Source: an uncultured Clostridia bacterium (GTDB lineage Bacteria; Bacillota; Clostridia; TANB77; CAG-508). Taken from it: DNA of 39,852 nt. Positions 2,615 through 20,080 of the stretch are shown piece after piece. How positions within the stretch are numbered: the first letter of the stretch is position 1; each line of letters begins with the position of its first letter. The stretch covers positions 1-39,852 of the forward strand of contig CANQPZ010000011.1 in NCBI GenBank assembly GCA_947625895.1. The letters are read 5' to 3'. A program made the position numbers and the translations under genes. Below the pieces are notes generated by a model, which searched no databases, was not told the origin of the DNA, and saw only the letters and a list, made by a program, of their open reading frames with translations.

Positions 2615-2624
2615 TTTAACACAA

Positions 2625-2660
2625 AAAAATAAGCACAAAATTTAATTTATGCTTATTTTT
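2625..2660. terminator. Bidirectional terminator between convergent genes
   Basis: The arms AAAAATAAGCA and TGCTTATTTTT flank a 14-base AT-rich loop. The A-run on one side and T-run on the other let it serve both the 2144 gene and the converging gene that ends at 2665. Confidence 0.8.
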
Positions 2661-2664
2661 CATT

Positions 2665-4407
2665 TTAATATCCTAACATTTTTAGAATTGCAGTTCCTGC
2701 TTTTTCACCTTTTCCTTCATAAGGCCATTCATTTATTGAATATCCTGGGTTATCATTTATTTCTATAATAGCATAATCGTCTTTTTTGACATCATTGATT
2801 ATTATATCAACACCGCATATTTTTCCGTTAAATGATTTAGCTGCTTTTTCTGCAATTTTTTTGAATTTTGCTGGCATAACATCTGTATAATCAACAGCTT
2901 CTCCACCAGTTGAACAGTTTGAATTTGTTCTTAAAAATACTCTTTTTCCTTTTGGTACAACAGATTTATATGTTAAATCTTGTGTTTTTAAAAATTCAAC
3001 AACTGGTTGATCTTTTTTTACTGGAGCATATGTTAATGCATGCCATGGTTCTTTGTTTTTTGCATCAATCAATTCCTCAATTGTAGATTTACCATCACCA
3101 ACAATACTTGCAGCTCTTCTGTGAGCAACACTTAAGCATTTTCCGTTTATTACTAAGAATCTATATTCCATTCCTTTTGCATATTCTTCAATTAGTATGT
3201 TGTCATCAAATGTAAATGCATATTTAATTGCATCTAATATTTGTTTTTTAGCTACTTTTTTAGAGAATACTGTAATACCAGTACCATAGTTTGTATTTCT
3301 TGGTTTTACTACTAGTGGTCCATTATGAAAATCAGCAAGAATGTTATCGATATCATCGCTGTCCATGTCTTTATCTAGTAGTACTGCTTTAGGAACATTA
3401 AGTCCTGCATTTTTCATTATTTGTTTTGATATGAATTTGTCATCAGTAATAATAGGGAATATATAGGTATCCCTGTCTGTTTTATTACCTTCAATTCCAA
3501 ATTCTTTATGACCATTTAAATTAAATTCAACGACACTCTTATTTTCATTAAGTACATTATAATCTATACCTAATTCTATGGCGTCTTTGATTATTGCTGC
3601 ACATTCTGCAACTATTTTTGGATATCTTGTTATGCAATATCTTGTTGCATAACCTTCTTCCATATATTTTTTAGCTAATTCTATTTTTTTGTTTTCAGAA
3701 AGTTTAGATTCTTTATCTGAGTTTGCCTTTAAAAGTGCAATTACTTCTTTTACAGATGCTAAAGATTTTAAAAGATATAATTTTGCTACTTTTTCTAGTG
3801 CTTTATTTAAGTCTGTTAAACTTTTTAATTCTAGTTTTTCTAAGAAACAAAAAGTTAGTGTAACTAAGAAATATAATTCATCTTGGCTAATTCCAAATCT
3901 TGTAGAACTGTCAAGTTTTATATTTGAAAATTCGATATTATTTTTTGAAATTTTCAATGTACAATCACCAAAAACTGGGTTAATCAAATCTGCATATAAT
4001 TTAAAGTTTTCTTTAACATTATTTAATGCTGGTAACATTAGTTTTGGTAAGTTCTTGTTTAATTCAGTCATTTCTTTATAAAAATCTGAATCAATAGATA
4101 TTGTTACTTTATTAGCTAATGATATGTTTTCATAATTTGAAAATGGCCAAATTAATTCTTTATCATTATAACTTTGTACATATACTACATTAGTGATTTC
4201 TTTTAGTTTACTATATGCATCAATAACGTTTTTTTCAGTTGGTGTTTTTATAACAAATATGTTGTCACTATTATTTTTAGTAGTAATAAAATTATTTTTT
4301 GTTTTATCTCCATATGCTTTAGGATATTTTAGTTTTACTGATTTTGCTTCATTGTTCAGTCTTAAAGCATCTCTTTCAATGCTAATATTATACTTTTCTT
4401 GTTTCAT
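2665..4407 (-). CDS. GshF-like protein: degenerate glutamate-cysteine ligase domain fused to an ATP-grasp ligase
   Basis: 580 residues, against roughly 750 for bifunctional glutathione synthetase GshF. Residues 7-95 follow the start of the ligase domain (ISIERDALRL, KAYGDKTKNNFITT, ELIWPFSNYE). The family's metal-binding DxSExQLE stretch reads NNSDNIFVIKT here. The central 150 or so residues are missing, and the ExRxxDxNPF catalytic motif has become IEFSNIKLDSST. Residues about 260-580 form a complete ATP-grasp module: VVKPRNTNYGTGI, LIEEYAKGMEYRFLV, RRAASIVGDG, LRTNSNCSTGG, CGVDIII and IEINDNPG. So the ATP-grasp half looks active while the gamma-glutamylcysteine half looks dead. It is the second gene of an operon, 21 bases behind the GNAT-like gene, with AGAGG before its ATG. 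Its substrate is unknown. A canonical glutathione synthetase is unlikely. Confidence 0.8.
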   Translation of the reverse strand: MKQEKYNISIERDALRLNNEAKSVKLKYPKAYGDKTKNNFITTKNNSDNIFVIKTPTEKNVIDAYSKLKEITNVVYVQSYNDKELIWPFSNYENISLANKVTISIDSDFYKEMTELNKNLPKLMLPALNNVKENFKLYADLINPVFGDCTLKISKNNIEFSNIKLDSSTRFGISQDELYFLVTLTFCFLEKLELKSLTDLNKALEKVAKLYLLKSLASVKEVIALLKANSDKESKLSENKKIELAKKYMEEGYATRYCITRYPKIVAECAAIIKDAIELGIDYNVLNENKSVVEFNLNGHKEFGIEGNKTDRDTYIFPIITDDKFISKQIMKNAGLNVPKAVLLDKDMDSDDIDNILADFHNGPLVVKPRNTNYGTGITVFSKKVAKKQILDAIKYAFTFDDNILIEEYAKGMEYRFLVINGKCLSVAHRRAASIVGDGKSTIEELIDAKNKEPWHALTYAPVKKDQPVVEFLKTQDLTYKSVVPKGKRVFLRTNSNCSTGGEAVDYTDVMPAKFKKIAEKAAKSFNGKICGVDIIINDVKKDDYAIIEINDNPGYSINEWPYEGKGEKAGTAILKMLGY

Positions 4408-4428
4408 AAAAAATTACCTCTTCTCTAA

Positions 4429-5439
4429 CTAATCTAATTCGCTTGCAATTTCTAATTGAATTGTCTTCAATAATGGAACTCTTTCGTTTCCATCAGCACT
4501 TGTACCAACATTTAAATTGATATTTAAAGCATTTATTGGTTTTATGCTATGGTAAATAATTTGTCTTCCATTTAAGAAATTGTAGTATTTTTTTGAATCT
4601 TTTGTGTTTTTACAAATTACGTTGCTTAAATCTGAATATAAATTAGTAGATTGGCAATTTGTATAATCAAATATAAAATTATTATTATTTAATTTCTTTT
4701 TATTATCTAAATCAATCTCTACTATAAAAGTAGGGGCTTCGCATAATACTTTACTAGAATCAAATATCTCATAAAATCCTGCTAAATAAATCTGTACATT
4801 AATATTTTCTTCTTGTAATTCTCTTACGGCTTTTGATATTGAATATAAACTACATGTATTTCTACAGTCTATTTCACATACAAGTCTAATTTTTTTATCT
4901 TTATTAAGGTAGTAAGCACCTTTAATTGCTGATTTAAATAATTCTTTTCCTAATCCTCTTATTTTATTTCCATTATTATCTATTGCATTGGCTTTTGTTA
5001 ATATACCTGTTATAGATAAAACATTCTCATTCTCAGATGGGAAATATGGATTATCATGAATTGACTTATTATTTTCAAATTTAATAGTTGTTGCTCCTAA
5101 TATTTCATTGTGTCCAAATTCATTTTTACGTGTAGATAACATTACTGGGTAGTGTAAAATATTTTTTACTATATTACTAATGTTAGGAACATGCATAAAA
5201 TCTTTATTTCCAGTGAAATTTGAATCATAAAAATAAGCTAGATCAAATATTGAATCTCTAACTAAATTTTTGCTTTTCATTGATTGAAATAAATGAAAAT
5301 TTATATTAGGTTCATTTGTTTTTTTAAATTGTTCTGTTTTCTCCTCCATTTCTTTAATATAAGTTTTAAAAATCTTTTGTTTAATATCCCCATTTATCTT
5401 TTTATTAGGTCGGGGTTTTTCTTTTTCTTCTTTTTCCAT
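4429..5439 (-). CDS. GNAT-like acetyltransferase-fold protein
   Basis: 336 residues, cytoplasmic, with a very basic and acidic N-terminus (MEKEEKEKPRPNKK). Around residues 115-230 the pattern resembles a GNAT fold: a beta strand (EILGATTIKFEN), a second strand (VLSITGILTKANAID), then KIRGLGKELFKSAIKGA, which fits the acetyl-CoA pyrophosphate loop (Q/R/K-x-x-G-x-G/A). RLVCEIDCRNTCSLYSISKA then fits the next strand and helix. The flanking parts are not recognised. AGGAG precedes the ATG. It is the first gene of an operon with the GshF-like ATP-grasp protein, so it may acylate the substrate or product of that ligase. This is an inference from context. Confidence 0.55.
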   Translation of the reverse strand: MEKEEKEKPRPNKKINGDIKQKIFKTYIKEMEEKTEQFKKTNEPNINFHLFQSMKSKNLVRDSIFDLAYFYDSNFTGNKDFMHVPNISNIVKNILHYPVMLSTRKNEFGHNEILGATTIKFENNKSIHDNPYFPSENENVLSITGILTKANAIDNNGNKIRGLGKELFKSAIKGAYYLNKDKKIRLVCEIDCRNTCSLYSISKAVRELQEENINVQIYLAGFYEIFDSSKVLCEAPTFIVEIDLDNKKKLNNNNFIFDYTNCQSTNLYSDLSNVICKNTKDSKKYYNFLNGRQIIYHSIKPINALNINLNVGTSADGNERVPLLKTIQLEIASELD

Positions 5440-17326: not shown

Positions 17327-19273
17327 ATGAAAAACAAAAGGAAATTAGTCATTCTTCTATTGGCAATTTTTATTCTTATATTAGGCAGTAAAAATCTACT
17401 TGCTGCTTCTGTAGAAAATGTCCAATTAGAAGGCGAAGGAATATTAAATTATACGAATAATCCATTTAATCCATTTTATTCAACTTCTAAGAGGGATGAA
17501 AGCCATATAAGTAATAGAATAAGTAGTTTATTCAATAGAGTTGTTGCTGCTACATTACCTTCAAGTTATAGGACTGAAGGACTTACAGTAAAAAATCAAG
17601 GAGAAACTGGTGAATGCTGGGCATTTGCTTATACATCAGCAATTGAAGCGTATAATTTAACTCATAATGGAAGTACTAAAATTTTTTCTCCTAGACACAT
17701 TGATTACTCTTGTAGTAAAAGTTTTACTGAATCTGTAGATTCAAGTAAATATTTTAATAGGGAAGTAACAGATGGAGCAGGAAATTACTTTTTAGCTTCT
17801 GCATATGCTGCATCTAGAAAAGGTCCTGTATTGGAATCTGATATGCCTTTTTCTGAAACTTTAAACAAGATATCAATTAATGATTTAAATAAAGAAAGGC
17901 AAAAACAAATTGAGGATTATGTAATATTTGATAGTGTTTATAAAAAATATACAGGAAGTCAAGTCTCATACTATATGGATCCTACTTGCACAATGCCATA
18001 TAATAATATAGAAGGTTTTAGAAATCAAGTAAAACAACAAATAAAAGAAAATGGTGCTGTATTGACATGTATATTTCAAACAGTGCGAGATAGTGATGTA
18101 TTAGTAAAACAAGATGAATACGGTGTAAATCATGGAGTTTGTATTGTTGGATGGAATGATACATATCAAGCTGCTGGTTGGGACAAACCTGGAGCATATA
18201 TAGCAATAAATTCTTATACTGAAGAAAGTTTTTATGATGGTTATATTTACATATCATATGATGATATATATGTAGAAGAAAATTTATTTGGAATTACAGC
18301 TGTATCAGATGTAGATACAACAAATGTATATGAATATGATGAATTAGGAACTACAGGTGGTGCAACTGGTGAAGACATTGCAGAAGAATGTAGTCAAACA
18401 GAAGAAATAACAGCAGTTAATGTTTTTAATAGAGAAAGTGTAGGAAAAGATGAATTACTAACAGAAGTTGGGGTAGCAAACTGGAGTTATCAAAAAGCGG
18501 AAGTTTATTTTACAGAAGAATTTTCATCTGATAGTGGTGATGAATTACCTAAAAATTGGAAACTTATAGGATCAACAGATACGATGGGCCCTGGATTTAA
18601 GACGATTAGATTAAGCAAACCTACTAAACTTACTAAAGATAAATATGCTATAGCTGTAAGATTTATAGAAGACAATGTTGAAAAACAAGCTTCTGTAGCT
18701 TTGGAAATGCCACTTTCTAGCAATAATTGGTGGGCAAATGTAAAAGGAAATAAAGGGGAATCATTTATAGTTATAGATAAGTTTAATACTAATGGTGGTA
18801 ATACATTTTATATGCTTGGATCTAGAGGTAATTATTATAATAATTGTGTAAAAGGTTATACAACAATTTCAAGTGATATATCTTCTAGCGTTTATGAAAT
18901 AAGAGGTTCAATAGTAACAAAAGTTGATCTTAATACATCATTAGAAGATTTTAAGAGCAAAATAACTGTTCCAGAAGGTAAAGAATATAAAGTAGTAGAT
19001 TCAGAAGGACATGAAGTTTCTGAAAATGATGCTGTTCTAAAAACAGGAGATAAAGTTGTTATTGATTCTAAAGAATATGTTATTTCTGTTAGAGGAGATG
19101 TTACAGGTGACGGAGTAGGAGATATTCTTGATTTAGCAAGAATTCGTGCACATGCTGTAGGAAGAAAAGGATACATACTTACTGGTGCAAGCTTGTATGC
19201 AGCAGACTTGAGCTCAGATAGTCAAGTTGATATTCTGGATATTGTCAGAATGAGGAGAATTTGTGTTGAATAA
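17327..19273 (+). CDS. Secreted papain-family (C1A) cysteine protease with lectin-like and dockerin domains
   Basis: 648 residues. A signal peptide (hydrophobic to about residue 27, LLAAS) is followed by a short propeptide-like region. The C1A catalytic domain spans roughly residues 78-335: VKNQGETGECWAF gives the oxyanion Gln91 and nucleophile Cys97, GVNHGVCIVGWND gives His269, and AYIAINSYTEE gives Asn295. Residues about 355-515 resemble the Lectin_like module often fused to bacterial C1 proteases. A short module then leads to a C-terminal type I-like dockerin. This has two Ca-binding loops, DVTGDGVGDILD and DLSSDSQVDILD, each with the helix (LARIRAHAVG; IVRMRR). GGAG precedes the ATG. The cohesin gene lies 66 bases downstream with its own promoter, so the protease is probably docked on that surface protein. 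Confidence 0.93.
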   Translation: MKNKRKLVILLLAIFILILGSKNLLAASVENVQLEGEGILNYTNNPFNPFYSTSKRDESHISNRISSLFNRVVAATLPSSYRTEGLTVKNQGETGECWAFAYTSAIEAYNLTHNGSTKIFSPRHIDYSCSKSFTESVDSSKYFNREVTDGAGNYFLASAYAASRKGPVLESDMPFSETLNKISINDLNKERQKQIEDYVIFDSVYKKYTGSQVSYYMDPTCTMPYNNIEGFRNQVKQQIKENGAVLTCIFQTVRDSDVLVKQDEYGVNHGVCIVGWNDTYQAAGWDKPGAYIAINSYTEESFYDGYIYISYDDIYVEENLFGITAVSDVDTTNVYEYDELGTTGGATGEDIAEECSQTEEITAVNVFNRESVGKDELLTEVGVANWSYQKAEVYFTEEFSSDSGDELPKNWKLIGSTDTMGPGFKTIRLSKPTKLTKDKYAIAVRFIEDNVEKQASVALEMPLSSNNWWANVKGNKGESFIVIDKFNTNGGNTFYMLGSRGNYYNNCVKGYTTISSDISSSVYEIRGSIVTKVDLNTSLEDFKSKITVPEGKEYKVVDSEGHEVSENDAVLKTGDKVVIDSKEYVISVRGDVTGDGVGDILDLARIRAHAVGRKGYILTGASLYAADLSSDSQVDILDIVRMRRICVE

Positions 19274-19339: not shown

Positions 19340-20080
19340 ATGAAAAAGAAGATTGTATTAGTTTTATTAATGATAATTTCACTAATGAGCGTACTTACAG
19401 CAAGGGTTTTCGCTGCTGATTCATTTTCTGCATCATTAACCCCAAGTACAACAAGGGTTACAAAAGGTGGAGAATTTACAGTAACTTTAAAAATATCATC
19501 AATCAATGTTCAAGATGGTATAAGTGGAGTTGAAGGTACGTTAAAATATGATCCAGATGTCTTAAGTATTACAAAAAATGATATAAAAGCAGCTGATGGA
19601 TGGGCAGTTGATTTTAGTGAAGATACTTTGAAATTTGAAGTAGATAGATCTGATTCAACAAAAGAAGATGCTGAAATAGCTACATTTAAATTTAAAGTTA
19701 ATCAAAATACAAGTAATACAACAGCTACTGTTTCAATAGTTTCAATTGCAGGTGGAAATGCTAGTTTAAGTGAAAAAATAAAAATCACTGATCTTGTTAC
19801 GAATGTTACAATAGCAAGCTCAGGAACAACTTCACCTACAGCAACAAGTTCCCCAAGTTCATCACCATCAACATTACCAACAGTTAATCCAACACAAAAC
19901 CCAAGTTCAAATCCAGGTACAAATCCGGGTTCAGGTGATGAAAACGTAGTTGAAAACACAACTAGAAAAGATTCTGATATGCCATATACTGGTGCAGAAG
20001 CTTATATAATACCACTAATAATAGTTATATCTTTATTAGGAATAGCTTCTTACATCGGATATAAAAAAATAGGTAAATAA
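19340..20080 (+). CDS. Cell-wall-anchored cohesin domain protein
   Basis: 246 residues. A signal peptide ends near VFAADS (about residue 26). One cohesin domain follows (about residues 27-155), with LTPSTTRVTKGGEFTVTLKIS, GVEGTLKYDPDVLSI and AEIATFKFKV. A Thr/Ser/Pro/Asn linker of about 50 residues (TSSPSSSPSTLPTVNPTQNP) spans the wall. The C-terminus is a sorting signal: MPYTG (residues 214-218, an LPXTG variant), a hydrophobic helix (IIPLIIVISLLGIASYIGY) and the basic tail KKIGK. A class of sortase would link it to peptidoglycan. Only one cohesin is present, so it would anchor one dockerin enzyme at a time. It has its own strong promoter and a clean terminator. Confidence 0.9.
   Translation: MKKKIVLVLLMIISLMSVLTARVFAADSFSASLTPSTTRVTKGGEFTVTLKISSINVQDGISGVEGTLKYDPDVLSITKNDIKAADGWAVDFSEDTLKFEVDRSDSTKEDAEIATFKFKVNQNTSNTTATVSIVSIAGGNASLSEKIKITDLVTNVTIASSGTTSPTATSSPSSSPSTLPTVNPTQNPSSNPGTNPGSGDENVVENTTRKDSDMPYTGAEAYIIPLIIVISLLGIASYIGYKKIGK

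Follow-up and report, generated by a model that had tools for sequence, protein, structure and literature searches.

The closest described relatives of the protein discussed here all use related ATP-grasp parts. In the glutathione-forming GshF/GshAB (NCBIfam PRK02471 and TIGR01435; PDB IDs 3LN6 and 3LN7), this half follows a glutamate-cysteine ligase (GCL) half, so that one chain has two activities. In cyanophycin synthetase CphA1 it forms the G domain (TIGR02068; PDB IDs 7WAC and 7LG5), to which a MurE-like C-terminal domain is added; the residue roles used below are those of the cyanophycin synthetase structure paper (PMC9427784). In Ngg, the N-acetylglutaminylglutamine synthetase of the osmoprotectant NAGGN (TIGR03103), a GNAT part and a related ATP-grasp part are fused in a single chain that N-acetylates one glutamine and joins a second (PMC8070244).

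The window, that is, the whole stretch of 39,852 nucleotides analyzed from an uncultured Clostridia bacterium, harbors a pair of genes related to these systems but arranged differently (Table 1). A GNAT-like gene is followed, 21 bases downstream, by a gene encoding a shortened GshF; both open reading frames and the spacing are as placed by the initial annotation. The possible terminator beyond the pair was not picked up by the stricter rule of the scan, and the promoter scan was uninformative (29 found for 24.8 expected). No description of such a ligase/GNAT pair was found in open-access papers. We regard the ligase as a genuine variant of GshF, conserved within its lineage and specific to it, to which an unnamed GNAT gene is firmly linked. 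To note, elsewhere in the window (17327-19273, plus strand) lies the gene of a papain-family peptidase whose C-terminus matches dockerin weakly, under the Pfam cut-off; it adjoins a small cohesin-domain protein (19340-20080, plus strand). In this genome of 1.5 Mb, the two may be a cohesin/dockerin pair that carries a protease.

Table 1. Features of the ligase/GNAT locus (positions in the window).
Feature	Position	Strand	Basis
Possible terminator: A+T-rich inverted repeat then T run, 3' of the ligase gene	2623-2660	-	Sequence reading
Eroded GshF, 580 aa (GCL remnant and intact ATP-grasp half)	2665-4407	-	ORF and family matches
ATP-grasp half, GshF/cyanophycin-synthetase type, residues 236-580	2668-3702	-	Structure matches, alignments, residue roles from PMC9427784
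GCL remnant, residues 1-235 (good conservation over 1-90; shrinkage and divergence over 91-235; no catalytic His or Arg)	3703-4407	-	PF04262, profile match, site tally
GNAT-like partner gene, 336 aa, first of the pair	4429-5439	-	ORF, relatives, neighborhoods
Extension C-terminal to the GNAT fold, residues 250-336, fold unassigned	4432-4692	-	Outside GNAT matches
GNAT fold, residues 40-249, with G162-x-G164 loop and DC[RT]N..S motif	4693-5322	-	Foldseek, VIA-align, invariant columns

The first half of the ligase is still recognizable as a GCL. The Pfam family Glu_cys_ligase (PF04262) matches residues 5-103 above its cut-off (E-value 7.8e-11), the remainder of the protein matching ATP-grasp families. 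Profile-profile alignment to the GCL of GshF gives an E-value of 1.1e-33 for residues 1-240 and of 3.2e-8 for residues 93-235 alone, hence the entire remnant, beyond its start, is homologous to GCL. Since the AlphaFold2 model of the protein failed (pLDDT 33, pTM 0.19, with the window and L024 sequences as input), the fold of the remnant is argued from this profile alignment. Compared with a 719-residue GshF of the same taxonomic family (L100), the window ligase falls short by 139 residues, its four main gaps measuring 14, 20, 74 and 20 residues; identity amounts to 43% over residues 1-90, 15% over residues 91-235 and 49% over residues 236-580.

The erosion reaches the active site. The catalytic positions of GCL, which we take to be E27, E29, D60, E67, H150, E328 and R330 in E. 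coli numbering, were located from the GshF motifs and compared in 13 full-length eroded orthologs and seven GshFs. All seven GshFs display E, E, D, E, H, E and R. The H150 and R330 positions are occupied by other residues in 13 of 13 eroded orthologs, and the E67 position, a valine in the window copy, is not Glu in 12 of the 13; the E27, E29, D60 and E328 positions are mixed. Searches of the window's genome (~95% complete) revealed no other GCL, of either the GshA or the GCS2 type (both Pfam families). From the active-site loss in every ortholog, the GCL half appears no longer to make gamma-glutamylcysteine. The initial annotation had described an eroded GCL half lacking about 150 core residues and its first activity, which agrees well with these observations; its account of the motifs needs a minor correction, as the window copy retains by alignment a Glu at the E27 position (E11) and at the E328 position (E159), so that some of the ligand residues persist.

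Is the remnant on its way out? Simple Nei-Gojobori counts yield Ka/Ks ratios of 0.18-0.51 in the GCL remnant and 0.07-0.19 in the ATP-grasp half, indicating that the remnant is under purifying selection, though less constrained. Chance or an assembly artefact is ruled out by 13 intact, open orthologs from several genera and two families, and a decaying pseudogene by the absence of stop codons in them together with the Ka/Ks ratios of the remnant. The wider notion of a GshF heading for loss, with a first half devoid of present function, draws on the faster evolution of the remnant; it is hardly credible in view of the same open frames and ratios and of the invariant residues that residues 1-90 hold in the ortholog alignment. 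The initial annotation had suggested that the remnant may persist for substrate docking or dimerization; purifying selection is compatible with such a scaffold, without specifying the role.

The ATP-grasp half, by contrast with the first half, retains its catalytic residues by alignment (K324, K368, R416, R430, N497, D534 and E549), in line with the intact motifs reported by the initial annotation. Its donor side is GshF-like: the P-loop carries Tyr374, the residue found in GshF, where CphA has His267 (L151 has Met), and Tyr374 is accompanied by the hydrophobic I319. The protein also retains STGG, a motif of GshF. The acceptor loop, with S557, N559 and W561, differs from those of GshF, CphA and Ngg, and these three residues differ from every GshF of other Clostridia compared. 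Ser557, invariant in the alignment of eroded proteins, corresponds to Arg458 of CphA, which binds aspartate; among the other proteins aligned, this position is His, Asn or Leu in the GshFs and stand-alone relatives and Ala in Ngg. W561, W455 and H456 are further residues of the eroded clade. N559 is common to this clade and to the GshFs of the same family, which implies that the acceptor side began changing before the first domain was lost. The acceptor-loop residues suggest an acceptor other than glycine or aspartate, without identifying it.

None of the described enzymes accommodates this protein. The GshF models score below their cut-offs (PRK02471, 346.1 bits versus 425; TIGR01435, 225.2 versus 656) and are followed, among the NCBIfam matches, by cyanophycin synthetase and the NAGGN synthetase family. 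Among solved structures, the best matches are those of GshAB, 3LN7 (E-value 6.5e-61) and 3LN6. Despite whole-length homology and a shared ATP-grasp half with the same catalytic residues, membership of GshF/GshAB is ruled out by the lost His, Arg and E67 positions and the sub-cut-off scores, the ATP-grasp half alone being that of a GshF; shortening, the altered acceptor loop and the fixed GNAT partner set the protein further apart. CphA1 shares the ATP-grasp type and its catalytic residues, but the window protein ends after this half, without the MurE-like C-terminal domain, and Tyr374 and Ser557 replace the P-loop His and the acceptor Arg458, which excludes it from that family. Ngg combines a GNAT with a related ATP-grasp part (hhalign E-value 2.5e-27); however, it is one fused chain without a GCL remnant, and the two separate genes seen here and a score of 143.9 bits versus a 569-bit cut-off for TIGR03103 rule out membership. 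The amidotransferase gene of the NAGGN operon is absent from the window locus, and neither the glutamine amidotransferase (AsnO) nor the M42 peptidase of that operon is a shared neighbor in 14 loci. A known two-domain family with an assigned function, which the initial annotation had named as an outcome that would contradict it, did not emerge: no family model names the eroded ligase.

Orthologs were searched in the genus, family, order and class of the window's organism and in one named contig of an uncultured Clostridia bacterium (L024). This yielded 13 full-length eroded proteins, the window's included, and one cut off by masked sequence (L099). They are distributed over several genera of one family, within which identity to the window ligase is 53-63%, and one genus of a second family (L151). 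In all of the 14 loci, the GNAT gene lies directly upstream, on the same strand and 11-37 bases off; beyond these two, the loci have no gene in common across genera. ATP-grasp plus GNAT is a known combination in microviridin-type clusters, and the pair might accordingly modify a ribosomal peptide or a protein. This is very improbable: the lack of a shared third gene means that no precursor gene of at least 70 amino acids is common across genera, and the ATP-grasp half is of the GshF type rather than the microviridin type.

Other genera of the same family harbor genuine GshFs of 719 residues (L100-L105), without a GNAT partner in the stretches fetched. A 46-row tree of the ATP-grasp half, with cyanophycin synthetases as outgroup, places the eroded proteins in one clade (100/99) that is sister to these GshFs (joint clade 100/100). 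This is most simply explained by a single loss within the order. The same-family GshFs (L100:5177-7336; L101-L105) display a peculiarity of their own: they keep the GCL motifs, exhibit SKGGE instead of STGG and have an Asn in place of the conserved acceptor-loop His, and with these changes they may not make ordinary glutathione. A phage or plasmid origin of the pair was rejected, no relative of the GNAT protein having been found in plasmids or phages and none of the ligase in viral contigs.

Stand-alone ATP-grasp proteins of the GshF type were also encountered. One joining the tree nearby (L063:1465-2469), located between transporter genes, was rejected as an eroded form: it has no GCL remnant, and neither a GNAT neighbor nor a GCL gene is present in the fetched stretch. 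Another belongs to a seven-gene run conserved in two genomes (L118:4283-10209; L119:3533-9449). This run, which also encodes a methyltransferase, a DUF3419 protein, a CoaE-like kinase and two radical-SAM enzymes, one of them equipped with a B12-binding domain, looks like a small biosynthetic cluster.

The relationship to GshF invites a conservative reading, in which the protein is a salvage synthetase that adds the last residue to imported gamma-glutamyl dipeptides such as gamma-Glu-Cys, yielding glutathione or a close analogue, with a GNAT linked to it, for example, by acetylating thiol adducts. The GshF-like Tyr374 and I319, the retained STGG and the position of GshFs as nearest relatives in the tree all fit. 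We nevertheless regard it as unlikely, albeit worth keeping in mind, since S557, N559 and W561 are unlike those of the GshFs of other Clostridia, the fixed GNAT partner is left unexplained and the intact GshFs of the same family lack such a partner in the fetched stretches.

The partner itself has no credible match in Pfam or NCBIfam, nor do 19 relatives. Its AlphaFold2 model, built from two sequences, is of modest confidence (pLDDT 57, pTM 0.58); residues 40-249 match many GNATs (Foldseek best E-value 6.5e-5, VIA-align Z about 11-12). The GNAT-like neighbor pointed out by the initial annotation is thus a real GNAT fold by structure comparison, and one that travels with the ligase. G162, G164 and the DC[RT]N..S motif are invariant in a 20-member alignment of the family. 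Assignment to the GNATs with a CoA-binding loop follows from this modest-confidence model, the loop glycine G162 being missing from the copies of another family, f5. The GNAT family was seen in this order only: a sample of the class (381 genomes) returned the window's family alone, and a scan of the order added two f5 genomes. One genome (G704) carries the GNAT gene without the ligase: this GNAT-family member, from another family of the order (L152:6007-7041), has the ligase neither adjacent nor elsewhere in its genome.

A second clade of the GNAT family, 22-31% identical to the window protein, is associated with a different enzyme in the same taxonomic family. There, a Beta-Ala-His/cytosolic non-specific dipeptidase of the M20 kind (TIGR01893) follows in 11 of 11 assessable loci; three of these dipeptidases were scanned by the family model and two passed its cut-off. 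A further locus runs into the edge of its contig; L111 is truncated by the end of a contig, and L114 is split in two. Both pairs occur together in two genomes (G004 and G009). The search of the window's genome for a relative of this dipeptidase gave none. The dipeptidase is unrelated to the ligase and is a hydrolase, so that the GNAT family accompanies enzymes either making or breaking short peptides. The NAGGN operon likewise has a peptidase, of the M42 type.

Pairing with two enzymes of opposite chemistry could also mean that the GNAT-like protein is a binding or regulatory partner of peptide-bond enzymes, devoid of acyltransferase activity, and that the ligase product is an unmodified peptide. 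The extensions outside the GNAT fold and the f5 copies without G162 go in this direction, but the invariant G162, G164 and DC[RT]N..S of the 20-member alignment are what would be expected if CoA is still bound, which makes this reading improbable.

The reading we prefer, tentatively and at slightly less than an even chance, is that the two genes act as one unit to produce a short peptide that is N-acylated, or modified in some other way by the GNAT, in the manner of Ngg, the dead GCL part being kept as a scaffold. The initial annotation had likewise suggested an acylated amino acid or peptide, joined by the ATP-grasp domain. The GNAT-like protein would first use an acyl-CoA, probably acetyl-CoA, to acylate an amino acid or dipeptide on its amino group. 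The ATP-grasp half, whose conserved residues suggest this chemistry, would then activate the free carboxylate of the acylated molecule as an acyl phosphate and couple it to an amino acid through the amino group of the latter; glycine and aspartate are improbable as this acceptor. The GCL half, in view of the purifying selection, would serve as a structural or docking part. The pair would work like Ngg but have been built separately, from a GshF. The hhalign comparison reveals no recognizable similarity between the GNAT family and the GNAT part of Ngg (whose profile is made of two sequences); the analogy therefore rests on gene pairing, and with related ATP-grasp halves the pair would be a parallel invention. 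Some features count against the N-acyl peptide: the GshF-like donor residues Y374 and I319 would equally fit a gamma-glutamyl donor, the GNAT model is modest, G162 is lost in f5 and one genome has the GNAT without the ligase.

Taken further, the pair might represent a lineage-specific pathway of small-genome Clostridia to an undescribed N-acyl peptide, possibly a thiol, an osmolyte or a signal, in which a glutathione synthetase became a ligase of a single reaction, with a dead domain as scaffold, and an unnamed GNAT family partners this ligase and, in a sister clade, a dipeptidase; this larger proposal is rather unlikely. In practical terms, eroded proteins of this kind may receive glutathione synthetase labels, even though synthesis starting from free amino acids is not expected of them. 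The locus provides a clear case of a two-activity enzyme in which one half dies while the other half and the core of the dead domain stay under selection, and intact relatives in the same family are available for comparison with the eroded ligase. It also links a GNAT family absent from Pfam and NCBIfam to peptide-bond enzymes. Should the product prove to be an N-acyl peptide, uncultured Clostridia would have a new small molecule to offer, one that two genes make directly testable.
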